A stretch of 64,000 nt of DNA. Source: Streptomyces sp. MBT65 (lineage in GTDB: Bacteria > Actinomycetota > Actinomycetes > Streptomycetales > Streptomycetaceae). Below, piece after piece: positions 9,088-58,968 of this stretch; the stretch's first letter is position 1, and each line of letters starts with the position of its first letter. The stretch is from contig NZ_JAENRY010000007.1 of the NCBI RefSeq assembly GCF_016612545.1, positions 1 through 64,000 on the forward strand, read 5' to 3'. Below the pieces are notes generated by a model. It was not told the DNA's origin. It was given only the letters and a program-made list of their open reading frames with translations, and did no database searches. The translations under genes were made by a program, and so were the position numbers.

Positions 9088-9178
9088 GGCGTCTCCCTCT
9101 TCACTTTCGGCACCGGGTGCCATTACTGTCGACCGCGCAGCCGCCCGGATGCCCAGCCGGAAGCTCAGGGAGAGTCGC

Positions 9179-9316: not shown

Positions 9317-9326
9317 GCCCGCCCGC

Positions 9327-10807: not shown

Positions 10808-10830
10808 ACCACAAGGGAAGAGAACACGTC

Positions 10831-12021: not shown

Positions 12022-12023
12022 GC

Positions 12024-14190: not shown

Positions 14191-14288
14191 ATCGGTCGGC
14201 AGACGCCCGGGCCAGGAAATGACACTGGGATCATCCCGCCGCGTGTGTGCGGCACTTGCGCGATATCAGGCAGCAGGAGGTGTGCGGC

Positions 14289-15470: not shown

Positions 15471-15506
15471 CGGACCGTCGAGAACGTGCGAGAACAAGGA
15501 GGGGCC

Positions 15507-17402: not shown

Positions 17403-17436
17403 CGGGGCCTCCTCGGAGATGTGGGTGGAGTATTGT

Positions 17437-17468
17437 CTAGGGTGACCCTAAATATAGGGTCACCCTAG
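17437..17468. promoter_or_regulatory. Perfect inverted repeat, operator of the TetR/Ddn-like pair
   Basis: CTAGGGTGACCCTA (17437-17450) is followed by AATA and its exact reverse complement TAGGGTCACCCTAG (17455-17468). Each arm itself contains a near-palindrome AGGGTnACCCT. It lies midway between the two divergent starts. Confidence 0.8.
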
Positions 17469-17504
17469 TCTCCTTGTCTCCCCGAAAACCGGACGGATGT
17501 GCCG

Positions 17505-18173: not shown

Positions 18174-18208
18174 ACGGCGGGTGAGCGGACGAGAGTTGGC
18201 GGGTGCCG

Positions 18209-20791: not shown

Positions 20792-21916
20792 TCAGGCGGA
20801 CTTGGCCGACCGCTGAAGGAGGGTGCAGAGCCGGTCGCGATGGACCGCCGTGTCCCCGTACAGCACCCGGTCGGCCCTGGCCCGGCGCAGGTGGAGATGC
20901 AGGTCGTGCTCCCAGGTGAAGCCGATGCCGCCGTGCAACTGCAGCGCCCGCGCGCCGACTTCACCGGTACCGGCCGCGGCGTAGGAGGCGGCGGCACAGG
21001 CGGCCCGGGCGGTGTCGTCGGTTCCCGCGTCGGCGGCCATCGCCGCGTAGTACGTCGAGGCGCGGGTGCCGTGCACGATCAGTGCCATGTCCGCGCAGGC
21101 GTGCTTGACGGCCTGGAAGCCGCCGATCGGCCGCCCGAACTGCACCCGGCTCTTGGTGTGTTCGACGGTCAGCTCCAGCATGCGCTCCATCACGCCGAGC
21201 GCGTCGGCGCACCGCAGGACGGACGCCTCGTCGAGCAGGGCCTGGATGTCGGTCGGCCCACCGTCGAGCCGGGCGTCGAGCGGGACGCGTACGGCGGCCA
21301 GGCGGACCTCGTGGAACGCGCGGGTCGGATCCAGGACGCGCTGCCGTCGGACGGTGACTCCGGGCGCGGTGCGGTCGACCAGGAAGGACGCCGGTACGCC
21401 GTCGTGGCGCGCGGTGACCAGCAGCCAGCGGGCGCCACCGGCATCCTGCACCAGGGTCTTGACCCCGTCCAGGACGACCTCGTCCCCGTCGGTGCGCGCG
21501 CTGGTGTGGATGCCGCCCAGTGTCCACGGGGCGTGCGGTTCGGCGAAGGCCCAGGTCGCCCAGCCGTCTCCGGCGGCGAGCGCGGGCAGCACCTCGGAGC
21601 GCAGCCGCTCGGCACCGCCGTAGGCGATCGCGCGGCCGACGAGTGCTGTCGGGAGGAAGGGGCCCCGGCCGAGTGCGCGCCCGATCTCCTCGGCGACCAG
21701 GGAGAGTTCGACCAGTCCCTGGCCGGATCCGCCGTACTCCTCGGGCAGGGCCAGTCCGGGCCAGCCGAGGTCGGACATCAGGCGCCACAGCTCGGGATCG
21801 ACGTCCTCGGAGCGGTCCATCGACGCCCGTACGAGGGCGATCGGGGCCCGGTCGGACAGCAGGGCGCGCGAGGCCTCGCGCAGCATGGCCTGCTCCTCGC
21901 TGAGCTCGAAGTTCAC
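20792..21916 (-). CDS. Acyl-CoA dehydrogenase, compact FadE type
   Basis: This 374-aa protein starts at GTG 21916 (VNFELSEEQAMLREASRALL). It has LALPEEYGGSGQGLVELSLV, the RVQFGRPIGGFQAVKHACAD motif and the C-terminal LQLHGGIGFTWEHDLHLHLR. This pattern is seen in actinobacterial FadE proteins that pair with a second FadE as heterotetramers in steroid side-chain and ring degradation; pairing here is inferred. The middle domain is short. It is close to the protein at 37839. Divergent from the thiolase at 22047, it shares AGTATACT-type elements in the gap. Confidence 0.88.
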   Translation of the reverse strand: MNFELSEEQAMLREASRALLSDRAPIALVRASMDRSEDVDPELWRLMSDLGWPGLALPEEYGGSGQGLVELSLVAEEIGRALGRGPFLPTALVGRAIAYGGAERLRSEVLPALAAGDGWATWAFAEPHAPWTLGGIHTSARTDGDEVVLDGVKTLVQDAGGARWLLVTARHDGVPASFLVDRTAPGVTVRRQRVLDPTRAFHEVRLAAVRVPLDARLDGGPTDIQALLDEASVLRCADALGVMERMLELTVEHTKSRVQFGRPIGGFQAVKHACADMALIVHGTRASTYYAAMAADAGTDDTARAACAAASYAAAGTGEVGARALQLHGGIGFTWEHDLHLHLRRARADRVLYGDTAVHRDRLCTLLQRSAKSA

Positions 21917-21953
21917 CAGCCACCACCCGGTCCGCAGCGGATCAATACGATGA

Positions 21954-22044
21954 AGAAGGTATCCTCTTTTCGGGGGATGGTCGAGATCCAGGGATGATTC
22001 AAGGTGTTCTTCCGTCCGTATCCCAGAGTTGAGTATCATCAATT
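21954..22044. promoter_or_regulatory. Two AGTATACT-type elements in a divergent promoter
   Basis: Site one, AGAAGGTATCCTCTTTT, is at 21954-21970. Site two, GTTGAGTATCATCAATT, is at 22028-22044. Both align with the element at 34747-34763. In site two TATCAT ends seven bases before the thiolase ATG, which has no Shine-Dalgarno box, so it may be the -10 box of a leaderless transcript. Confidence 0.5.
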
Positions 22045-22046
22045 GC

Positions 22047-23219
22047 ATGACTGATGCCGTTCTGCTCGCCGCCTGCCGCACCGCGATCGGTACCGCTCGC
22101 CGGGGCTCGCTGCGTGACACCAGCGCCTTCGACCTCGCCACCGTCGTCGTACGCGAGGCGGTGCGGCGCTCCGGGCTGCCGCTCGACCTGATCGACGACG
22201 TCGTGCTCGGCGAGACCCTGGCCGGAGGCGGGGACATCGCGCGCTACGCGGCGATGGAAGCGGGGCTGACCCATGTGCCGGGGCTGGCGCACAACCGGCA
22301 CTGCGCCTCGGGGCTGGCCAGCGTGGCGACGGCCGCCGCGGGGGTGCTCGCCGGCATGGACCGCGCGGTCGTCGCCGGCGGCACGCAGTCCACGTCGACC
22401 GCTCCCGTGGCCCGCTGGCGCATACCGGGCACCGACGACTGGCAGGACGGCTGGCGGTCGCCCTCGCACGTCCCGACCCGCGAGGCACCCAACGACGACA
22501 TGGCGACCCTCGTCGGCTGGAACACGGCCCGACTGACCGGCATCTCGCGTGCGGAGATGGACAGTTGGGCGCTGCGCTCGCACCAGCGGGCCGTGCGGGC
22601 GATCGACGAGGGACGGTTCGCCGACGAGATCGTCCCGGTGGACGTCGTCGACCGCGACGGGACGAAGTCCGTGTTCGACACCGACGAACACCCGCGCCGC
22701 GACACCACCATCGAGAAGCTCGCGGCGCTGAAGGTGCTGCGTCCCGAGATCGAGGGCTACTCCATCACCGCGGGCAACTCCAGTGGCGTGAACGACGGTT
22801 CGGCCGCGGTCGTCGTCGCCTCCTCCGAGATCGCCGCCCGGCACGGGCTCACCCCGCTCGCCACCGTACGGTCGTGGGCGAGCGTCGGCGTCGATCCCGT
22901 CGAGACCGGACTGGCCCCGATCGCCGCCATCCGCAAGGCACTTGACCGGGCCGGACTGCGGATCGAGGACGTCGACCTGTTCGAGGTCAACGAGGCCTTC
23001 GCCGCGGTCGCCGTCGCCACCACCCGTGAACTGGGCCTGGACCCCGAGCGGGTGAACCCCTTCGGCAGCGGGTGCAGCCTCGGGCACCCGATCGCGACCA
23101 CCGGCGCGCGCATGGTCGTCACCCTCGCGCACGAGCTGCGCCGCCGTGGCGGGGGCACGGCGGTCGCGGCCATGTGCGCGGGCGGCGGCATGGGATCGGC
23201 GATGGTGCTCACCGCGTGA
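22047..23219 (+). CDS. Acetyl-CoA acyltransferase (thiolase)
   Basis: This 390-aa thiolase has the nucleophile Cys86 in HNRHCASGL, the NEAF motif (FEVNEAFAAVAV), GHP (GCSLGHPIATTG) and the second catalytic Cys in MCAGGGMGSA. It cleaves 3-ketoacyl-CoA with CoA in beta-oxidation. The start is taken as ATG 22047, since MTDAVLLAACRTAIGT aligns with thiolase N-termini. No RBS is present, so translation may be leaderless. It is divergent from the acyl-CoA dehydrogenase and convergent with the aldehyde dehydrogenase. Confidence 0.93.
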   Translation: MTDAVLLAACRTAIGTARRGSLRDTSAFDLATVVVREAVRRSGLPLDLIDDVVLGETLAGGGDIARYAAMEAGLTHVPGLAHNRHCASGLASVATAAAGVLAGMDRAVVAGGTQSTSTAPVARWRIPGTDDWQDGWRSPSHVPTREAPNDDMATLVGWNTARLTGISRAEMDSWALRSHQRAVRAIDEGRFADEIVPVDVVDRDGTKSVFDTDEHPRRDTTIEKLAALKVLRPEIEGYSITAGNSSGVNDGSAAVVVASSEIAARHGLTPLATVRSWASVGVDPVETGLAPIAAIRKALDRAGLRIEDVDLFEVNEAFAAVAVATTRELGLDPERVNPFGSGCSLGHPIATTGARMVVTLAHELRRRGGGTAVAAMCAGGGMGSAMVLTA

Positions 23220-26242: not shown

Positions 26243-27274
26243 TCACAGCGTGGGCAACTCGCCGATCAGGTCGAGGGAGGCCCGGGCGTACGCGGCCCGG
26301 CGCCGCAGGCTCACCAGGAAGCTCGGCGGTGCGAAATAGCCGACGTCACGAGGCAGCGAACCGGCGCGACGGGCGAGCGTGTCCTTGGCGTCGGCCGTCG
26401 TCCCGCACACGGCGATCTCGGCCAGCATCTCGTCGGTGACGGCGGCGGCCATCGCGTCGGTGTCCCCGGTGCGGAACGCCTTGCGGAGCTGCGCCACCGG
26501 GCCCTCCCAGCCGTGGTGGGCGACGAACGGGTCGTACGTCTTCACCGTCAGATAGAAGGCGATCATGCGCCGGGCGTCGGCCACGGCCCGCTCGGGAGCG
26601 GAGTCGTCGACCGCCGTGATGACCCAGCCGTGCTCCAGGGGCGGCTCGGTGCGGCCGGCCGCCGCGGTGCCGCGCTCGACGGACGGGCGTACGACGTCGT
26701 TCCACCAGGAGCGGGTGAACAGTCCGTGCCCGATGACACCGTCGGCGACCCGGCCCGCCGTGGCGGCCATCCGCGTGTTGAACGCGGCGAGCAGGACGGG
26801 GATGTCGAGCCGGCCGAGCACGGGAGCGCGGACGTCGGCGTCGATCGAGTGGAACTCGCCGTCGTAGTGGACCTTCTCGCCGTTCTCCGCGTGCAGCCAG
26901 GCGCGGACCGCGCCGACGGTCTCCGCGATTCGTTCCACCGGGCGGTCGGCGGGCACGTCCAGCCAGTCGCGGTTGATGCGGAACGCGGCGCTGCCCAGCC
27001 CCAGAAAGAGCCGCCCCGGCGCCTGGGCGTGGAGTTGGCGCAGCGCGGTGGCGTGGGCGTACGGGGTGCGGGCGAAGGCGTAGGCGATGGCGGGCCCCGC
27101 CAGGGCGCGCTCGGAGTTCGCGACGATCTCGGCGAGGGTGAGGTAGGCGTCATGGTCGACGAACTCGCCGGCGCAGAAGGCACCCGCACCGGCCTCCTCG
27201 GCCTCACGCGCCACCTCACGGCCCGGCCAGGGCATGCCGAACTGCATCACAGCCAGCCCTCCGTAGAAGCTCAT
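26243..27274 (-). CDS. LLM-class F420-dependent oxidoreductase
   Basis: This 343-aa luciferase-like protein starts at ATG 27274. It shows GMPWPGREVAREAEEAGAGA, then FCAGEFVDHDAYLTLAEIVA, the LFLGLGSAAFRINRDW loop and IPVLLAAFNTRMAATAGRVA, patterns of TIM-barrel F420-dependent oxidoreductases in mycobacteria-type actinomycetes. No Shine-Dalgarno box precedes the ATG. A TATCCT -10 box ends 5 bases upstream, so the mRNA is probably leaderless. The box lies within an AGTATACT-type element. The substrate is unknown. Confidence 0.85.
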   Translation of the reverse strand: MSFYGGLAVMQFGMPWPGREVAREAEEAGAGAFCAGEFVDHDAYLTLAEIVANSERALAGPAIAYAFARTPYAHATALRQLHAQAPGRLFLGLGSAAFRINRDWLDVPADRPVERIAETVGAVRAWLHAENGEKVHYDGEFHSIDADVRAPVLGRLDIPVLLAAFNTRMAATAGRVADGVIGHGLFTRSWWNDVVRPSVERGTAAAGRTEPPLEHGWVITAVDDSAPERAVADARRMIAFYLTVKTYDPFVAHHGWEGPVAQLRKAFRTGDTDAMAAAVTDEMLAEIAVCGTTADAKDTLARRAGSLPRDVGYFAPPSFLVSLRRRAAYARASLDLIGELPTL

Positions 27275-27291
27275 AAAAAAGGATACTGTTT
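27275..27291 (-). promoter_or_regulatory. AGTATACT-type element at a leaderless promoter
   Basis: Read on the minus strand, AAACAGTATCCTTTTTT directly abuts the ATG at 27274. It differs in two positions from the site at 34747-34763. TATCCT is at the right distance for a -10 box if transcription starts at the A of the ATG. Confidence 0.6.
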
Positions 27292-27310: not shown

Positions 27311-28084
27311 TCAGCGCAGTGTCCACCGTCCCCGGGGCACCGCCGAGCGGTCCACCTCCGCCTTTCCGATCGGGTTCCCGATCTGGGTGTACGACAGCCC
27401 GGTGCGCAGGGCCTGGGTGCGGGTCGCGTCCAGGGACTCCCAGATCGCGCGGACCGTGCCCTGGATCGCGGCCGGCGGTTTGGCGGCGATGATGCGCGCG
27501 ATCTCGTCCGCCCGGTCCCACAGTTGCTCGCCCGGCAGCACCTCGCTGACCAGGCCGATCTGGAGGGCGCGCGCGGCCGACAGGCGTTCGTCCAGGCCGA
27601 GCAGCGCGATCCGCAGGGTCTCGCCGAGCGGGATGCGGCGGGCCAGCCCGATCGGTTCGAGCGCCGCGGTGAGTCCGTAGCTGACGTGCGGGTCGAAGAA
27701 GGTCGCGTCCTGCGAACAGATCAGGATGTCGGCCTCGTTGAGCCAGTAGAACGCGCCCCCGGCCGCCATCCCGTGCACCGCGCAGACCAGGGGTTTCCAC
27801 ACCTGGTTCAGCTTCGGCGACAGGAACTCCCCGGGGTCGGTCTGCGACCAGACATTGGGCTGCCGGTCGATCCCCTCCTTCACGTCCATGCCGGTGCTGA
27901 AGGCGCGCTCGCCCGAGCCGCGCAGCACCATGACGTGCACGTCGTCGTCGGTCCTGACCCGGTCCCAGATCGCGGAGAAGTCGTCCAGCATCCGCTGGTT
28001 GAAGCTGTTCATGGCCTGCGGCCGGTTCAGCGTGATCGTGGCGACATGGTCGGTCACCTCGAACAGGACGGTCTTGAGATCCAT
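27311..28084 (-). CDS. Enoyl-CoA hydratase/isomerase family protein
   Basis: This 257-aa crotonase-fold protein starts at ATG 28084 with CGGAG upstream. It has VATITLNRPQAMNSFNQRML, the oxyanion-hole pair (FSTGMDVKEG and CAVHGMAAGGAFYWLNEADI) and ALLGLDERLSAARALQIGLV. The typical second Glu of hydratases is not obvious in the FFDPHVSYGLTAALEP segment, so isomerase, hydrolase or ring-cleaving activity is possible. It is followed by the F420 oxidoreductase after 36 bp. Confidence 0.87.
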   Translation of the reverse strand: MDLKTVLFEVTDHVATITLNRPQAMNSFNQRMLDDFSAIWDRVRTDDDVHVMVLRGSGERAFSTGMDVKEGIDRQPNVWSQTDPGEFLSPKLNQVWKPLVCAVHGMAAGGAFYWLNEADILICSQDATFFDPHVSYGLTAALEPIGLARRIPLGETLRIALLGLDERLSAARALQIGLVSEVLPGEQLWDRADEIARIIAAKPPAAIQGTVRAIWESLDATRTQALRTGLSYTQIGNPIGKAEVDRSAVPRGRWTLR

Positions 28085-28160
28085 CCGGCGACTCCGTTCG
28101 TCGACTCAGTTCGTCAGCTCGGTCTGTTCACCCGGTTCGTCATCTCGACGTGATCGAGGT

Positions 28161-28177
28161 AAGTAGTATACTTTTTT
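28161..28177. promoter_or_regulatory. AGTATACT element in a divergent promoter
   Basis: AAGTAGTATACTTTTTT lies between the enoyl-CoA hydratase (minus) and the 102-aa protein (plus). The core AGTATACT is a perfect palindrome and contains TATACT, a good -10 box, on both strands. Confidence 0.6.
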
Positions 28178-28227
28178 CTGGTCTTTGAGCGCCCGGAACG
28201 GAAACAAGATCCGCGGAGGAACCTGCG

Positions 28228-28536
28228 ATGAGGCCACGAGTGGGACAGATGCTCGCCAGCACGGTGGACACCACGGCGGTGATCGTCGTCCGCTGCCCCG
28301 ACAGCGAGGTGGACATCACCTGCGGCGGCGCCCCCATGATCGAGGGCACCGCGCCGGGTGCCGTCACCGGCACCCCCGACCCGGACCGGATGGGCGGTTC
28401 ACTGCTCGGCAAGCGGTACGCCGACGAGGACCTCGGCCTCGAACTCCTCTGCACGAAACAGGGACCGGGCACCCTCGCGGTGAACGGCGTCCCCCTGCCG
28501 GTGAAGAGCGCCAAGCCGCTCCCGGCCTCGGACTGA
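28228..28536 (+). CDS. Small conserved-looking protein, possible LvaB-like partner
   Basis: This 102-aa protein starts at ATG 28228 with GGAGGAA upstream. It has three Cys (VVRCPDSEVDITCGG and LELLCTKQGPG) and Gly/Pro-rich turns, ending KSAKPLPASD. It lies 19 bp before an acyl-CoA ligase and is in one operon with a phosphotransferase. In the Pseudomonas levulinate operon a small protein, LvaB, works with the phosphotransferase LvaA. Position and size match; homology is not shown. Metal binding by the cysteines is possible. Confidence 0.7.
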   Translation: MRPRVGQMLASTVDTTAVIVVRCPDSEVDITCGGAPMIEGTAPGAVTGTPDPDRMGGSLLGKRYADEDLGLELLCTKQGPGTLAVNGVPLPVKSAKPLPASD

Positions 28537-28555
28537 GAGAGCGGGAGGTGCGCCG

Positions 28556-30070
28556 ATGAACGTGTCGATGATCCTGGACATGGCCGCCGAGGGCTTCGGC
28601 GACCGGGTCGTGATCGGCCGCGCACAGGACGGGCTCACCCCCGTACGACTGCGCGAACTCGCCCTCGGTGGAGCCGAATCGGTCCACGAGGCCGGCGCCG
28701 ACGCGATCGTGTACCTGGCCACGAACGGACCCGCCTTCGCCGTCGCCCAGTTCGCCGCGGCCCACGCCGGGGTCCCGCTGGTCCCGGTCAACTACCGCCT
28801 GGGCGAGGAGCAGTTGGCCGCGCTCCTCGCGAACCACCCGCACGCCCTGGCCATCGCCACCCCCGACCAGGACGCGGCACCGCGCCGGGCCGGACTCCAG
28901 GTCCGCAGCCCCGCCGAGTGGCTCACGGAAGCCGCCGCGCACACCGGCGCCACCGTCGAACCGGCACCGGCGCCCGACACCCCCGCCGTCCTGATCTACA
29001 CCAGCGGAACCACCTCGGCCCCGAAAGGTGTGCTCCTGCGCCACCACAACCTGGTGTCGTATGTGCTCGGCACCGTGGAGTTCGCCGCGGCGGACCCCAC
29101 CGAATCAGCGCTGATGAGCGTCCCGCCGTACCACATAGCCGCCGTCTCCAATGTGCTGACGAACCTCTACGCCGGCCGCCGCACCCTCACCCTCGACCAG
29201 TTCACCCCGGAGAGCTGGCTCGGCCTCGTCCGGGAGCAGCGGATCACGCACGCGATGGTCGTGCCGACCATGCTCGCCCGGATCATGGACACGGCAGGGC
29301 TGGACCGTTCCGTGCCCTCGATGCGCTCGCTCGCCTACGGCGGCGCCAGGATGCCGGTGCGCGTGATCGAGACGGCACTGCGCGCCTGGCCGGAGGTGGA
29401 CTTCGTCAACGCCTATGGCCTGACCGAGACTTCGTCCACCGTCTCGGTACTGGGCCCGGCCGAGCACCGGGCGGCGATCGCGAGCGACGACCCGGCCGTA
29501 CGGGCCCGGCTCGGCTCGGCCGGACTGCCGGTGCCGGGCATCGAGATCGCGGTCCGCGACGTGACCGGGGAGTCGCTGGGCGCGGGCGAGACCGGGCAGA
29601 TCTGGGTGCGCGGCGAGCAGGTCTCGGGGGAGTACGCGGGTCAGGGCTCCGCCGTCGACGAGCAGGGCTTCTTCCACACCCGCGACCGCGGCCGCCTCGA
29701 CGCCGACGGCTACCTCCACATCGAGGGCAGGGCCGACGACACGATCATCCGCGGCGCGGAGAACATCGCCCCCGCCGAGATAGAGGACGTTCTGCTACGG
29801 CACCCGGACGTGCTCGACGCCGTCGTCGTCGGTGTCCCCGACGAGGAGTGGGGCCAGCGCATCGAGGCCGTCGTCGTACCCCGCGACGGCGCCGAGGTCG
29901 ACGCCGTCGCACTGCGCGCGGCCGTACGTGGCACCCTGCGCGGCTCGAAGACCCCGGACCGCATCACGTACTGGACCGAACTCCCGCGCACGGTGACTGG
30001 CAAACTCGTGCGCCGCGACATCGTGGCGGCGCTGACCGCACCCGAGCACGGGACGAAGGGGCAGTCATGA
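28556..30070 (+). CDS. Acyl-CoA synthetase (AMP-forming)
   Basis: This 504-aa member of the ANL superfamily has the P-loop YTSGTTSAPKG near residue 151, the A5 motif NAYGLTETSS, the TRDRGRLDADGYLHIEGRAD hinge and the catalytic Lys region RTVTGKLVRRD. It activates an organic acid as its CoA thioester. The start ATG 28556 has GGGAGG upstream. The stop overlaps the phosphotransferase start (ATGA). Together with the neighbours it is the LvaE-like position of a 4-hydroxyacid module. Confidence 0.92.
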   Translation: MNVSMILDMAAEGFGDRVVIGRAQDGLTPVRLRELALGGAESVHEAGADAIVYLATNGPAFAVAQFAAAHAGVPLVPVNYRLGEEQLAALLANHPHALAIATPDQDAAPRRAGLQVRSPAEWLTEAAAHTGATVEPAPAPDTPAVLIYTSGTTSAPKGVLLRHHNLVSYVLGTVEFAAADPTESALMSVPPYHIAAVSNVLTNLYAGRRTLTLDQFTPESWLGLVREQRITHAMVVPTMLARIMDTAGLDRSVPSMRSLAYGGARMPVRVIETALRAWPEVDFVNAYGLTETSSTVSVLGPAEHRAAIASDDPAVRARLGSAGLPVPGIEIAVRDVTGESLGAGETGQIWVRGEQVSGEYAGQGSAVDEQGFFHTRDRGRLDADGYLHIEGRADDTIIRGAENIAPAEIEDVLLRHPDVLDAVVVGVPDEEWGQRIEAVVVPRDGAEVDAVALRAAVRGTLRGSKTPDRITYWTELPRTVTGKLVRRDIVAALTAPEHGTKGQS

Positions 30071-31098
30071 GCGTCGCCACCAACAGCCCCGCGCTGCTGC
30101 GGGAGTTGACCGACCGCACGGCAGTCGCCGTACGCGACTGGACGCCCGGCGCCACCGTCGACGTCGTCGAACCCCTCACCGGCGGCACGTCGAGCCTGAC
30201 GTACGTCGCCGCCCTGTCGGGTGTCCCGACCGGGTATGAACGTGTCGTCCTCAAGGTGGCACCGCCCGGCCTGCCCCCGGTCCGCAACCGGGACGTGCTG
30301 CGCCAGGCGCGGCTCATGGCGGCGCTCGCCGGACAGCCGGGTGTACGGGTACCGAAGGTGCTGTTCGGCGACGCGGGCGCGCCCCCGGCCGTCCAGCCGT
30401 TCGTGGCCATGGAGTTGGTGCCGGGGGAGTGCGTCGAACCGGTGCTGCTGCCGCGCGGCACGCTCGCCCCGGGGGAGGTGCGGAGTCGTGCCCTGGACGC
30501 GGCGCGCATGCTGGCCGCCCTGCACCGGGTGACGCCGGCGCGTACGGCGCTCGCGGCCGAGCCCGTGGTGACGCTCACCGGGGAGATCGACCGGTGGACC
30601 CGGGCGTTCGGCACCGTCTCCGACGATCTGCGCACCGGCTACGAGGTGGTCGCCGAGCGGCTGCACGCGACCGTACCGGCCGCGATGACACCGGTGTTCA
30701 CCCACGGCGACTACCGACTCGGCAACACCTTGTGCGCGGACGGCGCGGTCACGGCCATCATCGACTGGGAGATCTGGTCCCTCGGCGACCCCCGCGTCGA
30801 CATGACCTGGCTGACCTTCTTCACCGACGAGGCGCGCCACCCGGCCTCCGTGTCGGACGAGCCGACCGGTATGCCCGCCAAGGCCGAACTGGTCGACGCC
30901 TACGAGGAGTTGCGCGGCGAGCCGCTGCGGGACCTGCCGTGGTTCGAGGCGCTCACCAAGTACAAGGAGTCCGCCGCGACCGCGCTGTTGATCAAACGGG
31001 GCCGTAGGTCAGGGCAGTTGAACGCCATGCATCAGCGGATGCTGCCCGCGCTGCCGGTGTTGCTGGACGAGGCGATGGAGCTGCTGGGCACGGCCTGA
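30067..31098 (+). CDS. APH-type phosphotransferase, possibly 4-hydroxyacyl-CoA kinase
   Basis: This 343-aa aminoglycoside-phosphotransferase-fold kinase has the Brenner box H213-G-D215 to N220 (FTHGDYRLGN) and the metal-binding D233 in IIDWEIWSLGDPRVDM. The N-lobe carries VVLKVAPPG. Homologues are the N-terminal half of ACAD10/11 and LvaA, which phosphorylate the 4-hydroxy group of hydroxyacyl-CoA. An ACAD10/11-like dehydrogenase at 33390 would be the natural partner. It is coupled to the ligase by a 4-base overlap. The tail overlaps the convergent TetR gene by 67 bp. Confidence 0.87.
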   Translation: MSVATNSPALLRELTDRTAVAVRDWTPGATVDVVEPLTGGTSSLTYVAALSGVPTGYERVVLKVAPPGLPPVRNRDVLRQARLMAALAGQPGVRVPKVLFGDAGAPPAVQPFVAMELVPGECVEPVLLPRGTLAPGEVRSRALDAARMLAALHRVTPARTALAAEPVVTLTGEIDRWTRAFGTVSDDLRTGYEVVAERLHATVPAAMTPVFTHGDYRLGNTLCADGAVTAIIDWEIWSLGDPRVDMTWLTFFTDEARHPASVSDEPTGMPAKAELVDAYEELRGEPLRDLPWFEALTKYKESAATALLIKRGRRSGQLNAMHQRMLPALPVLLDEAMELLGTA

Positions 31099-31679
31099 AG
31101 CTGGCGGATGCCCAGATCGAGGGCCGCCTCGAGGTGGGTGACCGAGCCGGTGGACATCATGATGAGAACGCCACCCTGGATACCGGCCAACAGGGCGGCA
31201 GCGGCTTGGTCGGCGTCGAGGTCGGCGGGGATCTCGCGCTGGTCCTGCATGGCCCGGATGCCGACGGCGATCTTGCCCTGCCACGAGGCGACGAGCTGCC
31301 TGGTGACGGCCTGCGCGCCGGGCGTGGCGGGGGTCAGCTGGGACATGAGCGCGTTGAGCGGGCACTGCTGGCCCTGCCGGCGATAGCGGTCGACGACCGC
31401 GTCCCGCCAGTCGTGCCAGGCCCGCCACGAGGTGAGTGCGCTGAGGTGCGGCTGCTGGTCGGACAGGACGCGGTCCGCCTCGTGCTCGGCCACGGCGAGC
31501 AGGAGCTCCTCCTTGCCGCCGGGGAAGTAGTGGAAGAGCTGGCTCTTGCTGCTTGCCGTACGGGCGCGGATGTCGTCCAGGGTCGTCTCCGGCACCCCGC
31601 GGGCGCGGAGCTCCGCCGCGGCTCCTTCGACGATGCGCTGCCGGGTGGCCGCGCCCTTCGGTGTCAGTCGTGGTGCCAT
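31032..31679 (-). CDS. TetR-family regulator
   Basis: This 215-aa protein from ATG 31679 has a helix-turn-helix at about residues 10-55 (IVEGAAAELRARGVPETTLD, then DIRARTASSKSQLFHYFPGG). It is divergent from the SDR at 31793. A nested inverted repeat (TGGAC, 6 bases, GTCCA) lies between them, so autoregulation plus control of the SDR is likely. Its C-terminus overlaps the phosphotransferase gene tail to tail. No AGTATACT element is found in its own promoter. Confidence 0.85.
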   Translation of the reverse strand: MAPRLTPKGAATRQRIVEGAAAELRARGVPETTLDDIRARTASSKSQLFHYFPGGKEELLLAVAEHEADRVLSDQQPHLSALTSWRAWHDWRDAVVDRYRRQGQQCPLNALMSQLTPATPGAQAVTRQLVASWQGKIAVGIRAMQDQREIPADLDADQAAAALLAGIQGGVLIMMSTGSVTHLEAALDLGIRQLQAVPSSSIASSSNTGSAGSIR

Positions 31680-31689
31680 GGCCTCACTG

Positions 31690-31729
31690 TGCCACTTTCT
31701 GGACTTGCGGGTCCATTTTCTGAGTGGCA
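31690..31729. promoter_or_regulatory. Nested inverted repeats between TetR and SDR genes
   Basis: The inner pair TGGAC (31700-31704) and GTCCA (31711-31715) is flanked by TGCCACT (31690-31696) and AGTGGCA (31723-31729). It is the likely operator of the TetR at 31032. Confidence 0.5.
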
Positions 31730-31792
31730 GCTTTGCCGTTCCCAGCCGGTCGGATCACCTTCCGGCGGGTCGGATTCGGAAGGCACAGCATC

Positions 31793-32548
31793 ATGACCGA
31801 GCGTCTTGCCGGGCGGAAAGCCCTGGTCACCGGCTCCACCAACGGGATCGGCGTCGCCATCGCGGTGGCCCTGGCCGCCGAGGGAGCGTTCGTCGTCGTC
31901 AGTGGACGCGACGAGCGCCGTGGTGCCGAGGTGGTGGCCCGTATCGAGAAGGACGGCGGCGCGGCGGCGTTCGTCAAGGCGGATCTGTCCGCGGGCGCCG
32001 AGGTGATCGACCGCTTCGCCACCGAGGTGATCACCGCGGCCGGCGGGCACATCGACGTGCTCGTCAACAACGCGGCACTCCTGCTCTCGCCCACTCCCAC
32101 CGCCGAGGTCACGCAGGAGACCATCGACGCGGCGCTGGCCGTGAGCGTGCGGTCGATGTTCCTGATCACCGGCCTGCTGGCGGCGCCCATGGCCGAACGC
32201 GGTCAGGGCGCCGTGGTCAACCTGGGCTCCATCGCAGGGCTGCGGGGCAGCGCGCATTCGGCGCTCTACAACATGACCAAGGCGGCCGTGCACTCGCTCA
32301 CCACGTCGTGGGCCGCCGAGTACGGGCCGCACGGCGTCCGCGTCAACACCGTTGCCCCCGGCCCGACTTTGACCGAGAAGGTGGCGTCGATGGAGGAGCG
32401 ACTGGCCCCGATCATCGCGCGCATGCCCTCCGGCCGCGCCGGTACTCCGGCCGAGGTGGCCTCCGCCGTCGTGTTCCTCGCGAGTGACGAGGCGGCCCAG
32501 ATCCACGGGGCCACCCTCACCGTCGACGGCGGATTCACGGCGGTGTAG
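31793..32548 (+). CDS. Short-chain dehydrogenase/reductase
   Basis: This 251-aa classical SDR starts at ATG 31793. It has TGSTNGIG for cofactor binding, NNAA in place of the usual NNAG (VLVNNAALLL), the catalytic Ser (NLGSIAGLRG) and Tyr-x3-Lys (ALYNMTK). The SGRDERR segment after the second strand favours NADP(H). It is controlled from the divergent promoter shared with the TetR gene. The substrate is unknown. An LvaD-like role in the 4-hydroxyacid module is one option. Confidence 0.87.
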   Translation: MTERLAGRKALVTGSTNGIGVAIAVALAAEGAFVVVSGRDERRGAEVVARIEKDGGAAAFVKADLSAGAEVIDRFATEVITAAGGHIDVLVNNAALLLSPTPTAEVTQETIDAALAVSVRSMFLITGLLAAPMAERGQGAVVNLGSIAGLRGSAHSALYNMTKAAVHSLTTSWAAEYGPHGVRVNTVAPGPTLTEKVASMEERLAPIIARMPSGRAGTPAEVASAVVFLASDEAAQIHGATLTVDGGFTAV

Positions 32549-32613
32549 AGCCGGGGCGGGTGGGACCGGTCAAGTGGCCTACAGGACATGGCCGGTTGCC
32601 GGTGGGGCAGGGG

Positions 32614-33393
32614 CTAGTACAGCCCACCGTCCACCCGGATCAGCGCCCCCGTCGTATAGCTCGACGCGTCGCTCGCCAGATACAGCGCGGTGCTGACGAT
32701 CTCCTCCGGCTGCCCCGGACGTCCGATCGCGCTGCGGGTCGTCTGACGCTTCTCTTCGGCCCACGACTTGGAGACGTCGGTGAGGAACGGCCCGGCAGAG
32801 ATCGTGTTGACCCGCACCGTCGGCCCGTACTCCAGGGCGAAGACCGTGGTCAGGGTGTTGAGCGCGGCCTTGGCGCCGGCGTACGGGCCGAAGCGGGGCT
32901 GGGGCATCAGCGCACCGGACGACGAGACGTTGATGATCGAGCCCCCGTTGCCCGAGTCGGCCATCCGCTGCCCGACCAACGAGGCGAGCCGGAACGGGCC
33001 TTTGAAGTTGACGCCGATCACCTTGTCGAACAACTCCTCGCTGGTCTCGGCCGAGGAGGGGGCCAAGGGCGACATGCCGGCGTTGTTGACGAGGACGTCG
33101 ACCTTCCCGAACTCCTCGTAGGCCGCGTCGGCGAGCCGGGCCAGGTCGTCCCAGTGGCCCACGTGCGCGGCGACCGGCAGAGCGCGGCGACCCAGGTCAC
33201 GAACCTCGTCCGCTACGGCCCGACACGCGTCGAGTTTGCGGCTGGCGATCACGACGTCGGCGCCCGCCGTCGCGAAGGCGCGCACCATCGCGAGGCCCAG
33301 GCCCCGGCTGCCGCCGGTGACGAGCGCGACCTTGCCGGTGAGGTCGAACAGGTCAGCCGGGGCAAGGGACTTGGTGTCGCGTTCGGCGCTCAT
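32614..33393 (-). CDS. Short-chain dehydrogenase/reductase
   Basis: This 259-aa SDR starts at ATG 33393 (MSAERDTKSLAPADLFDLTG). It has TGGSRGLG, NNAG (VLVNNAGMSP), the catalytic Ser (NVSSSGALMP) and Tyr-x3-Lys (PYAGAK). SRKLD after the second strand suggests NADP(H). Its ATG overlaps the stop of the ACAD10/11-like gene by 4 bases, so the two are made together. It could oxidise or reduce the hydroxy or keto product of that enzyme. Confidence 0.88.
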   Translation of the reverse strand: MSAERDTKSLAPADLFDLTGKVALVTGGSRGLGLAMVRAFATAGADVVIASRKLDACRAVADEVRDLGRRALPVAAHVGHWDDLARLADAAYEEFGKVDVLVNNAGMSPLAPSSAETSEELFDKVIGVNFKGPFRLASLVGQRMADSGNGGSIINVSSSGALMPQPRFGPYAGAKAALNTLTTVFALEYGPTVRVNTISAGPFLTDVSKSWAEEKRQTTRSAIGRPGQPEEIVSTALYLASDASSYTTGALIRVDGGLY

Positions 33394-34709
33394 CCGTCGA
33401 CCCGGCCGGTGAGGCTTTCGTCCTCGATGACATGGGCGTACCGCTTGCGGGCCGCCTCCAGCTTCGGCGGTATGTGCTCGCTGGGGAACAGGCCCTCGGC
33501 CGGCCGGCGGTTCTTCAGGAGCTGCTTGGCGATCGTGGTGCGGTGCACCTCGGTGGGGCCGTCGGCGAGCGCGAGGTTCGGGGCCGCCATCCACCATTTG
33601 GCGAGCGGGAGTTCATTGGTGGTGCCGAGCGAGCCGTGCACATGCAGGGCGCGCTGGATGACGTCGTGCAGCACCTTCGCCGTCTGCACCTTGCACATCG
33701 CGATCTGGGTCCGGGCCGCGCCGTGCGGCTGGGTGTCGATGATCCACGCGGTGTGCAGTACCAGCAGCCGGAACTGCTGGAGCTCCACCCAGGAGTCCGC
33801 GATGAACTGCTGCACGGCCTGTTTCTCGGCGAGAAGAGTGCCCTGAGTACGCCGGGACACCGCGCGCTCGCACATCATGTCGAAGGCGCGCGTGCACTTG
33901 CCGACGGTCCGCATCGCGTGATGGACCCGGCCCCCGCCGAGCCGCGCCTGGGCGACCTTGAAGCCCTCGCCGGGACCGCCGAGCATGGCGTCGAGCGGGA
34001 CCCGCACCTGGTCGTAGCGGATGTAGGCGTGGATGCCCTCGTCGAGGGAGTCGCGCTCGTCCATCGTGCCGACGTTGCGCTTGATCTCGATGCCGGGAGT
34101 CTCGGCCGGGACGATGAACATCGACATCCGGGCGTGCGGCGCGGCCTCGGGATCGGTGACGGCCATGACGATGAGGAAGGCCGCGTACCGGGCGTTGGAG
34201 GAGAACCACTTCTCCCCGTCGATCACCCACTCGTCCCCGTCACGCCGGGCCCGGCACACGAACTCCTTGGGATCGGCTCCCGCCTGCGGTTCCGTCATCG
34301 AGAAGGTGGAGACGATGTCGCCGTCGAGGAGGGGCTGCAGATAGCGCGCCTTCTGTTCCCCGGTGCCGAACATGGCGAGGATCTCGGCGTTTCCGGTGTC
34401 CGGGGCCGCGGTGCCGAAGACGGTCGGGGCCCAGTAGGAGCGGCCGAGGATCTCGTTGAGGTACGCGAGCTTCACCTGGCCGTAGCCCGCGCCGCCGAGT
34501 TCGGCGCCGAGATGGCAGGCCCACAGACCCTGGGCCCGGACCTGGTCCTGGAGCGGCTTGAGAATCGCGCGGGCCTTCTCGTTGCGCGTGTCGTACGGGT
34601 CGCCGCCGTGCGGGAACAGGAGGTCGAGCGGCTCGACCTCCTCCCGTACGAAGGCCGCCGCCCAGTCCAGTTTGGCCTGGAACTCGGGTTCGATCGAGAA
34701 GTCCAGCAT
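33390..34709 (-). CDS. Acyl-CoA dehydrogenase, ACAD10/11-like
   Basis: This 439-aa protein starts at ATG 34709 with GGAGGG upstream. It is longer than ordinary FadE proteins and has the ACAD10/11 pattern: LWACHLGAELGGAGYGQVKL, MTEPQAGADPKEF, DGEKWFSSNARYAAFLIVMA, and the C-terminal ADGPTEVHRTTIAKQLLKNR. Such enzymes (ACAD10/11, LvaC) work on 4-phosphohydroxyacyl-CoA made by an APH-like kinase; one is encoded at 30067. An AGTATACT palindrome lies in its promoter. It is coupled to the SDR downstream. Activity is inferred from family and context. Confidence 0.86.
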   Translation of the reverse strand: MLDFSIEPEFQAKLDWAAAFVREEVEPLDLLFPHGGDPYDTRNEKARAILKPLQDQVRAQGLWACHLGAELGGAGYGQVKLAYLNEILGRSYWAPTVFGTAAPDTGNAEILAMFGTGEQKARYLQPLLDGDIVSTFSMTEPQAGADPKEFVCRARRDGDEWVIDGEKWFSSNARYAAFLIVMAVTDPEAAPHARMSMFIVPAETPGIEIKRNVGTMDERDSLDEGIHAYIRYDQVRVPLDAMLGGPGEGFKVAQARLGGGRVHHAMRTVGKCTRAFDMMCERAVSRRTQGTLLAEKQAVQQFIADSWVELQQFRLLVLHTAWIIDTQPHGAARTQIAMCKVQTAKVLHDVIQRALHVHGSLGTTNELPLAKWWMAAPNLALADGPTEVHRTTIAKQLLKNRRPAEGLFPSEHIPPKLEAARKRYAHVIEDESLTGRVDG

Positions 34710-34746: not shown

Positions 34747-34763
34747 AAACAGTATACTTTTTA
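34747..34763. promoter_or_regulatory. AGTATACT element, best copy, in a divergent promoter
   Basis: AAACAGTATACTTTTTA is centred between the ACAD10/11-like gene (minus) and the nine-gene operon (plus). TATACT can serve as -10 box on either strand, so one bound regulator could shut both promoters. Confidence 0.65.
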
Positions 34764-34821
34764 GCGAGGTTCGGTCCATACTCGGAGTGCGTGACGGCAG
34801 ATGAGTATGAGGAGTTGGTCG

Positions 34822-36054
34822 ATGCGCAGGCCGATGGAGGGCGTACGCGTTCTCGAAGTAGCCCAGTTCACCTTCGTCCCGGCGGCGGGTGCCGTGCTCG
34901 CCGACTGGGGCGCGGATGTGATCAAGATCGAGCACGCCGAACGCGGCGACGGACAGAGGGGGTTGGTCCGGGTCCTCGGCTACGACGCCACCAGCGAGGG
35001 GTCGTCGTTCTTCCCGATCGTCGAGGGACCCAACCGGGGCAAACGCAGTGTCGGTCTCGCCCTGGAGAAGCCGTCGGCCCGCAAGGCGTTCGAGGAACTG
35101 GTCCGCGGCAGCGACGTGTTCCTCACCAACTTCCTGCCCGAGGCCCGCGCCAAGCTGCGCATCGACGTCGAGGACATCCGGGCGATCAACCCGGACATCA
35201 TCTACGTACGCGGCAGCGGCTTCGGCCCGCGCGGCGACGAGGCCACGAAGGGCGGCTACGACAGCACGGCCTTCTGGGCACGCGGTGGCAGCGCCGCCGG
35301 CGTCACACCGGCGGGCGCGGACCGGATGATCCGGATGCCCGCCGGTGCCTACGGCGACTCGATGGGCGGGATGACGATCGCCGGCGGAATCGCCGCCGCC
35401 CTCTTCTCCCGCGCGACGACCGGCGAACCGTCCGTGGTGGACGTGTCGTTGATCGGCGTCGGCGCGTGGGCGACCCAGTTCACGGTCAACATGGCGCTGA
35501 TGAACGGCGGCCCGCTGCCGGTGAATGTCCAGCCTCGGCACGGATCGCGCACCAACCCGCTCATCGGGGCCTACTTGACCTCGGACGGACGCTGGATCGA
35601 ACTGTCGATGCTCCAACCCGGCCGGTACTGGGCCGAGTTCTGCAAACTCGCCGGGCGCGGAGAACTCGCCACCGACGAACGCTTCGACAGCACCGAGAAG
35701 TTGATGGCCAACGCGGCCCAGGCGGCCGACCTCGTCGCCGAGATCCTCGCGTCCCGCCCCTTCGAGGAGTGGGTCGAGATCCTCTCCCGAGGGGAGGGCC
35801 AGTGGTCGGCGGTCCAGAACGCCTGGGAGGTCGGCCAGGACCCCTCCCTGCGAGCCAACGGAATGATCGCCCAGGTCGTGGACGCCGACGGCGTGAACCG
35901 TGAACTCGTCGCCAGCCCCGTCCAGTTCGACGAGACCCCGGCCGACATCAGACGGGCACCGCAGTTCGCGGAACACACCGACGAGGTCCTGCGCTCGCTC
36001 GGCCTCTCCGACGAGGAGCTGATCGCGCTGAAGATCGACGGCGCGGCGACATGA
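34822..36054 (+). CDS. CaiB/BaiF-family CoA transferase
   Basis: This 410-aa protein starts at ATG 34822 with GAGGAG upstream. Family features are MEGVRVLEVAQFTFVPAAGA, VLADWGADVIKIEHAERGD, NRGKRSVGLAL and the probable catalytic Asp in PAGAYGDSMGG. Class III CoA transferases move CoA between acids by an aspartyl-CoA intermediate. It is the first gene of a nine-gene plus-strand operon (34822-45001) and is controlled from the AGTATACT-containing divergent promoter. Confidence 0.9.
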   Translation: MRRPMEGVRVLEVAQFTFVPAAGAVLADWGADVIKIEHAERGDGQRGLVRVLGYDATSEGSSFFPIVEGPNRGKRSVGLALEKPSARKAFEELVRGSDVFLTNFLPEARAKLRIDVEDIRAINPDIIYVRGSGFGPRGDEATKGGYDSTAFWARGGSAAGVTPAGADRMIRMPAGAYGDSMGGMTIAGGIAAALFSRATTGEPSVVDVSLIGVGAWATQFTVNMALMNGGPLPVNVQPRHGSRTNPLIGAYLTSDGRWIELSMLQPGRYWAEFCKLAGRGELATDERFDSTEKLMANAAQAADLVAEILASRPFEEWVEILSRGEGQWSAVQNAWEVGQDPSLRANGMIAQVVDADGVNRELVASPVQFDETPADIRRAPQFAEHTDEVLRSLGLSDEELIALKIDGAAT

Positions 36055-45001: not shown

Positions 45002-45005
45002 CGGC

Positions 45006-47699: not shown

Positions 47700-47788
47700 A
47701 CTTGCATCCTGGTACCCGAACCGCACGCCTCCGGCCCAGGTGACGAATAGACTGGGGATCCGCAATATCCGCCCCAGAGGAGTTGGCC

Positions 47789-49261
47789 ATGGCGACTGCC
47801 GTCGACCGCGAGCCCGCCGACGGCGAGACCGGTGTCCCGGTCGGCAAGCTGGCCGCGCAGACCGCCCGCCGTATCGAGGCGACCGTGATCCGCCAAGGCT
47901 GGCCGGTGGGCGAGTCGTTGGGCTCCGAGGTGGACCTGCGGGAGCGGCTCGGGGTGAGCCGCGCGGTGCTCCGCGAGGCGGTACGGCTCGTCGAGCACCA
48001 CCAGGTGGCCAGGATGCGGCGCGGCCCGAACGGTGGCCTGATCGTCTGCGCACCCGACGCGGGACCGGCCACCCGCGCCATGGTGATCTACCTCGAATAC
48101 GTCGGCACCAGCGTCACCGACCTGCTCCAGGCTCGCCTCCTGCTGGAGCCGATCGCCGCGGGACTGGCCGCCGACCGCATCACCGAGGAGGGCATCGACA
48201 CCCTCCGGACCACCCTCGACGCCGAACTCGACCACTGGGACGAACCCGGAGTCCACTCGCAGGACCCGCTGCACCCCGTGCTCGGTCAGTTGTCCGGCAA
48301 CCCGGTCCTGCACCTGTTCGTCGACGTGCTCACCCGGCTCACCGCACGCTACGCGCACACCTCCCGCCGTATCTCCAAGGCCGAGATGCACGCGGCGAAG
48401 GACACCTCGCACCGCGCGCACAAAGCCGTCGTCGACGCGGTGATCGCCGACGACGGGGCCCGCGCCCAGACGGAGTTGACCGCGCATCTGGAGTCGGTGG
48501 CCGGCTGGATCGAGAAGCACCGGGTGCGGCGCGGACAGCGGATCGCGGGCAATGTCGTAGAGCCGGAACTGGTGGAGGGCCCGCGGGCCAAGCTCGCCGA
48601 AGTGGTCGCGGCCCGTATCCACGACGACATCGCCGCGCGCGGCTGGCAGACCGGCATGGTGCTCGGCTCGGAGGCCGATCTGCTCGCCCGCTACTCGATC
48701 AGCCGGGCCGTACTGCGGGAAGCCGTACGGCTGTTGGAGTACCACTCGGTCGCCCGGATGCGTCGCGGCCCCGGCGGCGGCCTGATCGTCACAGAGCCCG
48801 AGCCGCAGGCCAGTATCGACACCATGGCGCTGTTCCTGGAGTACCAGGGCGTCACCGCCGACGACCTGCGGATCGTGCGCAACGCGATCGAACTGGGGAT
48901 CGTCGCCCGGGTCACCGCCAGAGTCGCGGAGGGCGACAAAGAGGTGACCGAACGGCTCGGCAAGGCCGTGCGCTGGAGCACGGAGGGCCCCGCCGACGAC
49001 CCGCGCAAGGCCGACCTCTTCCACACCGAACTGGCCGCGCTCTCCGACAATCCGGTGCTGTCGCTGTTCCTGTCGATCATCACCGAGCTGTTCCGCCGCC
49101 ACGCCTCCGGCCATGACCGACCACTGCCCGGCGACACGGCGGCGGACGAGGTCCAACACGTCCACCAGCGGATTCTCGACGCCATCGTCGAGGGCGACGC
49201 CGGAGTGGCCCGGCACCGGATGCGCCGCCACCTGGACGCGCTGATCCCCTGGTGGCACTGA
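47789..49261 (+). CDS. Regulator with two fused FadR/GntR units
   Basis: This 490-aa protein starts at ATG 47789 with GAGGAG upstream. It consists of two full GntR-FCD units in one chain. The first winged helix is at about 20-86 (VSRAVLREAVRLVEHHQVAR, MRRGPNGGLIV), with an FCD-like helical domain to about 245. The second winged helix is at 268-334 (ISRAVLREAVRLLEYHSVAR, MRRGPGGGLIV), with a second FCD domain to the end. An ordinary FadR protein is half as long and dimerises; here one chain can mimic a dimer. It probably controls the divergent acyl-CoA dehydrogenase in response to an acyl-CoA or acid. Confidence 0.9.
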   Translation: MATAVDREPADGETGVPVGKLAAQTARRIEATVIRQGWPVGESLGSEVDLRERLGVSRAVLREAVRLVEHHQVARMRRGPNGGLIVCAPDAGPATRAMVIYLEYVGTSVTDLLQARLLLEPIAAGLAADRITEEGIDTLRTTLDAELDHWDEPGVHSQDPLHPVLGQLSGNPVLHLFVDVLTRLTARYAHTSRRISKAEMHAAKDTSHRAHKAVVDAVIADDGARAQTELTAHLESVAGWIEKHRVRRGQRIAGNVVEPELVEGPRAKLAEVVAARIHDDIAARGWQTGMVLGSEADLLARYSISRAVLREAVRLLEYHSVARMRRGPGGGLIVTEPEPQASIDTMALFLEYQGVTADDLRIVRNAIELGIVARVTARVAEGDKEVTERLGKAVRWSTEGPADDPRKADLFHTELAALSDNPVLSLFLSIITELFRRHASGHDRPLPGDTAADEVQHVHQRILDAIVEGDAGVARHRMRRHLDALIPWWH

Positions 49262-57915: not shown

Positions 57916-57956
57916 CAGGGTCTCCCATCACCGTCGTCAAGTCCTGGCAGCCCGAC

Positions 57957-58005: not shown

Positions 58006-58083
58006 AGAGCGCGACACCCGCTCGGGGCGCGGTGGCACGGTGACTGTCGCCCGTCACCCCGCGACCGGAGGCCACGCACCGCC

Positions 58084-58944: not shown

Positions 58945-58968
58945 GCGTCGGCGGGAGCACCGGACGAC

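Follow-up and report, generated by a model that had tools for sequence, protein, structure and literature searches.

A candidate kinase–dehydrogenase module for phosphorylative removal of a hydroxyl group in a proposed ring-degradation island of Streptomyces sp. MBT65

Introduction

How may a 4-hydroxyl group be removed from acyl-CoAs formed in the course of ring degradation in an actinomycete? The question is raised by a group of genes at 28228–34709 of the window, i.e. of the whole 64,000-nucleotide stretch analysed here (positions 1–64,000 of contig NZ_JAENRY010000007.1 of Streptomyces sp. MBT65, whose draft genome comprises 833 contigs and 11,250,604 bases). Genes for a small protein, an acyl-CoA ligase, an APH-fold kinase, short-chain dehydrogenases/reductases (SDRs) and an acyl-CoA dehydrogenase (ACAD) were found at or near the places assigned to them in a preliminary description of this DNA, which compared the set with the Pseudomonas lvaABCDE operon and supposed that the 4-hydroxy group is phosphorylated and then removed. 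Genes are designated below by their first coordinate; C and L numbers are our working labels of contigs and loci.

Based on the sequence data, we estimate with a probability of roughly 70% that kinase 30067 and ACAD 33390 act together to remove a hydroxyl by phosphorylation and subsequent elimination of phosphate, within an island devoted to degradation of ring compounds. The supposed chemistry is thus retained as the best reading, because the active site of the ACAD is class-specific, the protein groups with ACAD11 and LvaC, and pairing of kinase and ACAD recurs across genomes. In the proposed sequence of events ligase 28556, helped by protein 28228, would convert the acid released from the ring into its CoA thioester, and SDR 32614 might perhaps interconvert 4-oxo and 4-hydroxy forms, should the acid enter as a ketone. 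Kinase 30067, as its partnership and intact catalytic residues suggest, would then phosphorylate the 4-hydroxyl of the acyl-CoA at the expense of ATP. ACAD 33390, judging from its class-specific residues, would bind the phosphate via Arg, His and Arg, while its Asp takes the alpha proton; phosphate would be expelled, FAD would come back to the oxidised state and 2-enoyl-CoA would become available for beta-oxidation, the mechanism being that suggested for ACAD11. Transcription would proceed from two divergent promoter regions, where –10-like boxes overlap the same palindrome and a GntR/FCD-type repressor is its likely reader.

The dehydrogenase and its active site

ACAD 33390 (33390..34709, minus strand), the proposed phosphate-eliminating enzyme, found its best matches in the Protein Data Bank (PDB) in 4hr3 (E 3.8e-83) and ACAD11 (2.2e-78), while the next family followed only at 1.7e-44. 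According to the cited part of PMC12440821, R626, H634 and R637 of ACAD11 are proposed to bind the 4-phosphate, R631 to position the acyl-CoA and D753 to serve as a base. In a residue-level alignment ACAD 33390 has residues identical to R626, R631, H634, R637 and D753: its segment RLGGGRVHHAMR aligns gap-free to RLGPGRIHHCMR of ACAD11, and the catalytic Asp, standing in place of Glu, lies in ADGPTEVH (LADGPDEVH around D753 in ACAD11). The Cys in HCMR of ACAD11 is replaced by Ala (HAMR). R86 of ACAD11 was left unused, since its position in the numbering of the PDB chain could not be assigned.

In a tree of 41 rows, 22 of which came from the 65 relatives extracted from loci and in which LvaC was that of the Azotobacter lva operon, ACAD11, LvaC, 4hr3 and ACAD 33390 fell into one clade of 33 rows with support 97/98, which left out five ordinary ACADs from the window; the program warned of long branches, that of LvaC included. 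Within this clade ACAD 33390 belongs to an actinobacterial subclade (100/99) bearing HAMR rather than HCMR. All 65 relatives were extracted by the motif RLGGGR[VI]HH[AS]MR, and its presence in each of them follows from this search criterion, while the Asp-Gly motif, lying outside the search pattern, was found in 64 of the 65. Thus, as far as sequence can show, ACAD 33390 is a member of the ACAD10/11–LvaC class, as was assumed from the beginning.

Partnership of kinase and dehydrogenase

Kinase 30067 (30067..31098, plus strand; PF01636, 1.1e-29), the proposed 4-hydroxyacyl-CoA kinase, starts with a 4-base overlap with the stop of the ligase gene. Its catalytic residues H213-G-D215, N220 and D233 are invariant in 79/79 relatives, kept from 195 confirmed ones obtained by a kinase profile search with flanks of up to 10 kb (shorter in some loci). 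An ACAD with the phosphate motif was present within the fetched flank in 66 of these 79 loci at a median distance of 1.8 kb, and its occurrence varied with identity of the kinase to that of the window: 16/18 at 70% or above, 30/31 at 50–70% and 20/30 below. The search was also performed from the side of the dehydrogenase. A strong relative of ACAD 33390 was detected in 55 genomes within a sample of 296 genomes of the class, and in 16 of 29 loci fetched outside the own genome a kinase lay within 1.5 kb of it; one of these 16 kinases is nearest to that of the window and 15 are nearest to the kinases of contigs C111 or C102.

The own genome encodes four ACADs of the ACAD10/11–LvaC class (100, 57, 43 and 41% identity to ACAD 33390), while the remaining 8 ACAD matches at E≤1e-30 are devoid of the motif. 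An APH kinase adjoins three of these four ACADs, and the window kinase is separated from its ACAD by 2.3 kb. In the pruned tree described below kinase 30067 forms with its relatives a clade of its own (the P clade, 100/99). The window contig (C777) combines a P-clade kinase with a HAMR ACAD, contig C666 a P-clade kinase (41%) with an ACAD11-clade ACAD, contig C102 an ACAD11-clade kinase with an ACAD11-clade ACAD, and contig C111 an ACAD11-clade kinase with a HAMR ACAD. One genome thus contains each of the two kinase lineages paired with each of the two ACAD lineages, which suggests that the kinases are interchangeable. This is our main new argument that the window kinase would do the same job as kinases of the ACAD11 type, and since the pair recurs in actinobacteria in all lineage combinations within one genome, interchangeability of the kinases becomes directly testable.

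Layout of the module and its promoters

The module consists of two convergent operons, each starting from a divergent promoter region, with a TetR–SDR pair between them. The rightward operon includes the gene of the 102-aa protein (28228..28536, +), the AMP-binding acyl-CoA ligase of the activation step (28556..30070, +; PF00501, 2.4e-61, and PF13193) and the kinase. In the leftward one ACAD 33390 is followed with a 4-base overlap by the core-module SDR (32614..33393, –; PF13561 with motifs GGSRGLG, NNAG and YAGAK), a candidate 4-oxoacyl-CoA reductase, which has a relative at 55% identity or above in 42 of the 79 kinase loci. Transcription of the whole set as a single operon was considered and rejected because of the gene strands and the gene arrangement in Streptomyces sp. 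NBC_00080, where a close plasmid-borne relative keeps the gene order with 78–93% protein identity for module genes. The preliminary description had also overlooked the TetR-family gene in the middle of the module (31032..31679, –; PF00440/PF16925). It is divergent from SDR 31793 (31793..32548, +; PF13561), and the pair is absent from NBC_00080, where the gap between kinase and SDR is only about 160 bases. A TetR relative was found in 3 of the 79 kinase loci and a close (89%) homologue of SDR 31793 in 2 of them. Because of this absence from NBC_00080 and from most kinase loci both genes were ruled out as core parts, and the segment 31032–32548 is read as a lineage-specific insert, probably lying outside the core module.

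Two genes face the module from outside. The enoyl-CoA hydratase/isomerase gene (ECH; 27311..28084, –; PF00378, 2.3e-36), a candidate for the next step, shares the left promoter region, and a family III (CaiB-type) CoA-transferase gene (34801..36054, +; PF02515, 4.2e-85) diverges from the ACAD gene across the right one. The best promoter elements had been ascribed to the outer promoters at 28161 and 34747. Indeed, an operator-like palindrome AGTATACT is situated at 28165..28172, between the ECH gene and the rightward operon (TCGACG-16-TATACT), and again at 34751..34758, between the ACAD and CoA-transferase genes (TGGACC-16-TATACT on the minus strand). In the genome of 11,250,604 bases AGTATACT occurs at these two places only, both at module promoters, against 11 occurrences of a reversed control pattern. 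NBC_00080 has retained both sites in the same position, and so have 12 of 13 Streptomyces kinase loci, the exception being locus L059, which is devoid of them. Since the two palindromes are unique and conserved, the suggested joint control of the outer promoters is supported.

It is doubtful, though conceivable, that these palindromes are merely good –10 boxes of strong promoters rather than operators. Each of them does hold the –10-like TATACT of a sigma-70-like promoter, preceded at a distance of 16 bases by a –35-like hexamer, and these are the only two promoter-like matches in 8.8 kb (0.3 expected). However, the full 8-base palindrome is confined to these two promoters in 11.25 Mb, and the flanks are conserved on both sides of it. 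Further evidence was obtained with a site matrix trained on 7 distinct sites. The window's two were among them, which makes the scores of 28165 and 34751 circular, so only other places are informative. Four further sites scored at least 14 in the 93-kb contig: 27280 (30.1), 21958 (19.2), 49367 (15.9) and 54447 (14.7). A random null gave 0.05 matches at this level per sequence, but it is too kind, because the A+T content of promoters exceeds that of the contig; over 236 kb of DNA taken from elsewhere in the own genome (with overlaps) two distinct places reached 14, the best of them 15.4. Thus sites 27280 and 21958, both upstream of island genes, stand clear of the genomic background, whereas 49367 and 54447 are not clearly above it, which favours the plain promoter boxes, and the case for these two as operators rests mainly on conservation in NBC_00080.

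Site 27280 (27280..27287, outside the training set) is a variant, AAAACAGTATCCTTTTTT on the minus strand, upstream of an F420/LLM oxidoreductase gene (26243–27274), and it has a counterpart also in L047 (S. hokutonensis). Three of the four further sites have an NBC_00080 counterpart at the same promoter, namely upstream of the LLM gene, of an ACAD after a GntR gene and of a mycofactocin-SDR/amidohydrolase pair. For site 21958 no counterpart was found there at a score of 12 or above. It falls inside the longest open reading frame (ORF) 20792–22237 and is probably located upstream of the real gene start, because the annotated homologue of NBC_00080 is shorter by about 100 residues.

As to the protein reading the palindromes, GT-N2-AC spacing is reported in the cited part of PMC4494728 for some FadR-type GntR regulators, and the GT-N2-AC core of AGTATACT sites fits them. 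A candidate is encoded at 47783..49261 (+): its 492-aa product contains two GntR and two FCD stretches in tandem, i.e. has a pseudo-dimeric FadR-type make-up, and is 91% identical in NBC_00080. It is likely, therefore, that a GntR/FCD-type repressor, possibly this tandem protein, reads AGTATACT sites.

Two differences between the window and NBC_00080 were registered outside the module. Three predicted ORFs at 16983–18850 are unmatched in the NBC_00080 stretches retrieved and may represent another local insertion. At 45001–45006 thiolase and P450 genes are directly adjacent in the window, while in NBC_00080 (L039, 33519–36342) an OB-fold protein and a zinc-binding dehydrogenase, missing from the window, are encoded between them.

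What does the kinase phosphorylate?

The kinase is placed less straightforwardly than the dehydrogenase. The first tree, of 63 rows, contained long branches; for the pruned one seven own-genome rows (C45, C332, C230, C278b, C55, C137 and C184) were removed, and the 79 loci were represented by 19 rows rather than 38. Kinase 30067 fell outside the clade uniting the kinases of ACAD11 and 3dxp (98/91), outside the group of 25-hydroxysteroid kinase (25-HSK) and Rv3168 (100/100) and apart from the single LvaA row, whose long branch leaves the exact place of LvaA unsure. Thus, in the phylogenetic check proposed in the preliminary description, ACAD 33390 behaved as expected, grouping with LvaC and ACAD11, but the kinase stayed outside the groupings of both LvaA and ACAD11. 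An AF2 model of the kinase (pLDDT 94.1) found its best match, among the matches listed, in 3dxp (Z 28.6, rmsd 3.1, 312 residues), followed by 25-HSK (9ft5; Z 27.0, rmsd 3.6, 327 residues) and Rv3168 (Z 26.9, rmsd 3.5, 317 residues), with the next at 22.7.

Several observations weigh against the removal of an acyl-CoA hydroxyl by the proposed pair. The P clade is weakly sister (88/83) to 25-HSK, Rv3168 and the kinase of own-genome contig C5, remaining outside their 100/100 group, and because of this grouping the substrate of the kinase need not be an acyl-CoA. Identity of kinase 30067 to LvaA is about 23–28% (28% over 323 residues). LvaA and ACAD11 kinases carry Glu at the alpha-C position, where 78 of 79 P-clade rows (the remaining one has a gap) share Gln with 25-HSK and Rv3168. 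In the column of the CoA-contacting R176 of ACAD11 kinase 30067 has Gly, and the majority of P-clade members have one of Ala, Asp, Glu and Gly. The C666 kinase, on which one of the four combinations depends, joined the P clade in the pruned tree only, being placed next to a long branch, beside C45 and outside this clade, in the first one, and in its ACAD Tyr replaces the motif His (RLGPGRMHYAMR). Partnership is incomplete, as 13 of the 79 kinase loci have no motif ACAD in the flank and 13 of the 29 ACAD loci no kinase within 1.5 kb, and in the window the two genes lie on opposite strands. The PDB reference rows used for comparison are segments rather than whole proteins, and the ligase and SDR are generic.

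Some of these features would be accounted for if kinase 30067 is a 25-HSK-like kinase of hydroxy-terpenoids or hydroxysteroids, acting on a (perhaps tertiary) ring alcohol for removal of water, while the ACAD acts elsewhere or is itself a C–O lyase. The sister grouping, the common alpha-C Gln and the extended structural match with 9ft5 are in line with this view, as are KstD- and Hsa-like genes in the island, and the partner lyase of 25-HSK is described in the cited part of PMC8449060 as so far unknown. We nevertheless consider this alternative unlikely. By structure 3dxp, a member of the ACAD11-kinase clade, ranks first and fits about equally well; the catalytic loop reads HGD, like that of ACAD11, where 25-HSK and Rv3168 have WGD; the P clade also partners an ACAD11-clade ACAD on C666; and the own genome has its 25-HSK-group kinase in a different gene, that of C5. 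As a separate observation, in the C5 segment (27798–31583) an ACAD without the phosphate motif lies about 2 kb away from this kinase.

An ordinary beta-oxidation cluster, in which a plain dehydrogenase merely neighbours an unrelated detoxifying or resistance kinase, is very improbable in view of the class-specific ACAD residues, the clade placement, the conserved kinase–ACAD pairing, the APH(3') score of 33.5 bits, which is the best of kinase 30067 among NCBIfam resistance kinases and falls far below the cut-off of 205, and the separation (100/100) of own-genome APH-domain proteins C13, C320 and C831 from all kinases discussed, even though both superfamilies are large, the genome has 43 APH-domain matches and NCBIfam offers kinase 30067 no specific name. 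As to a grouping with antibiotic-resistance or choline kinases, raised in the preliminary description as a counter-argument, the scores speak against it, since such kinases stand far below in the structural comparison as well (Z ≤21.5 versus 26.9–28.6 among the matches listed), while the trees, which took in no named kinase of these types, do not address it.

Phosphorylation followed by elimination is therefore preferred, and one can tentatively go further. Phosphate-eliminating ACADs of actinobacteria may have recruited a third lineage of kinases, which is closer to steroid kinases than to LvaA or ACAD10/11, for dehydroxylation of bulky 4-hydroxyacyl-CoAs derived from rings, with free exchange of kinase and ACAD lineages between modules and with a ligase served by an unnamed, perhaps desulforedoxin-like partner; we give this extended scheme somewhat less than an even chance.

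The small protein beside the ligase

Protein 28228 gave no Pfam match at E≤0.001, and relaxing the threshold to E≤10 added only weak matches, either unrelated or to Desulfoferrod_N, the latter at E 0.05–0.27 in 2 of 10 homologues. No match of DUF6285 (PF19802), the LvaB family, which has a relative annotated as lvaB in a Pseudomonas lva operon, was found in the own genome, while the same search was positive in 2 of 14 genomes. With no Pfam match at 0.001 and nothing LvaB-like at E≤10, identity of the small protein with LvaB was ruled out. Its family is present in 59 of the 296 class genomes, and at 44 of 58 places with a homologue the next gene downstream, in the same orientation, encodes a ligase relative (20/29 where the small protein itself had served as the query and 24/29 in other loci). 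In R. rhodochrous pGD02.2.1 the small protein and ligase form one unit and kinase, ACAD and SDR another. Thus, we read the small protein as a probable partner of the ligase, and a family is named whose role beside this enzyme can be probed. The ligase itself reached no NCBIfam cut-off among the best 25 of 106 matches.

The C-terminal KPLP[AS]SD of the small protein is present in 21/21 rows of one alignment and in 11/14 rows of another, where one row is truncated and two have one change; Cys residues are not conserved as a set in the two alignments. Its AF2 model (pLDDT 89.5) gave a short 36-residue match to desulforedoxin (Z 3.3, rmsd 1.0), which was not significant in Foldseek (E 4.8), and a profile search against PDB sequences produced no match. 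Comparison of its two halves was suggestive only (local P 0.005, probability 7%). A desulforedoxin-like beta protein may perhaps be considered. Elsewhere in the genome, on contig C111 (L128, L129) about 40 kb from its kinase/ACAD pair, there are a ligase and a thiolase 61% and 62% identical to those of the window, together with another copy of the small protein (48%); these genes may belong to a second catabolic cluster.

The island and the probable substrate

The environment of the module was examined for hints at the substrate. Mycofactocin biosynthesis genes, named after NBC_00080, occupy 7496–14167, and mycofactocin-coupled SDRs, two of them above the cut-off, are encoded at 53554 and 55940. 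HsaA-, HsaB-, HsaC-, HsaD- and KstD-like proteins (14247–16025 and 57043–62481) all remained below curated equivalog cut-offs. KshA (PF19298, KshA_C) had no match in the own draft genome of 833 contigs, while controls from R. jostii, R. globerulus and M. simulans scored about 300 bits, and S. hokutonensis, where this module is also present, gave one match of 90 bits. The canonical steroid 9,10-seco pathway, considered for HsaA–D- and KstD-like proteins, was lowered in rank by the missing KshA and the scores below cut-off. Since mycofactocin, KstD-like and HsaABCD-like genes are present but KshA was not found, the substrate is probably a ring compound which is aromatised and meta-cleaved by a route other than the standard one for 3-ketosteroids, and we propose that the island may represent an undescribed route of ring aromatisation and meta-cleavage, for which the module suggests one step. 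Origin of the module's substrate from gamma-lactone or 4-hydroxyacid pieces of ring degradation appears plausible from this context. Ten further proteins of the window and nine of the Rhodococcus cluster gave no closer clue, as only the broad thiolase TIGR01930 met its cut-off among the NCBIfam matches listed, and a literature search joining the steroid, mycofactocin and phosphotransferase themes found no matching paper; other literature searches brought up, among the entries listed, two papers on ACAD10/11 and one on zebrafish peroxisomes.

Comparison with known systems

With the lva operon of Pseudomonas the module shares the joint presence of an APH kinase, an LvaC-class ACAD, an SDR, an AMP ligase and a small protein, as well as the proposed chemistry. 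The identical make-up initially claimed does not hold, since LvaB was not found, the small protein accompanies the ligase (44/58), the kinase stands apart from LvaA, and an SDR together with the TetR gene is a local insertion. The window ligase and SDRs lend no support to the comparison, because they are too generic: the ligase is 29% and the SDR 35.7% identical to the LvaE and LvaD types, while three other SDRs of the window reach 33–35%. Unlike the lva operon, the window genome has no DUF6285/LvaB match, its kinase belongs to another clade, its small protein is tied to the ligase without detected similarity to LvaB, and its genes form two operons in a context of ring degradation; the site is of GntR type, whereas lva has a PrpR/LvaR-type regulator, and no DUF485/symporter pair occurs among annotated NBC_00080 neighbours. 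According to the cited parts of PMC6692424, the lva region of P. citronellolis is also without lvaB, and LvaABCD homologues come from Alpha-, Beta- and Gammaproteobacteria. On the evidence of LvaB and of the kinase clade, the window module does not belong among lva operons.

Mammalian ACAD10 and ACAD11, which bring 4-hydroxy fatty acids into beta-oxidation, and their split bacterial homologues resemble the window pair in the Arg/Arg/His/Arg and Asp active site and in having a kinase partner. The differences are that the window ACAD carries HAMR in place of HCMR and belongs to an actinobacterial clade of its own, that its kinase stays outside the ACAD11-kinase clade and is devoid of R176, and that the two functions reside in separate polypeptides. 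25-HSK of Sterolibacterium denitrificans and Rv3168 have in common with the window kinase the APH fold, the weak sister grouping and the alpha-C Gln, while the HGD loop instead of WGD, identity of about 22% and a regular ACAD partner set it apart. Finally, the island is reminiscent of the actinobacterial steroid 9,10-seco pathway (KstD, KshA, HsaABCD) in its HsaA/B/C/D-like and KstD-like proteins, but these score below equivalog cut-offs in an own genome without a KshA_C match.

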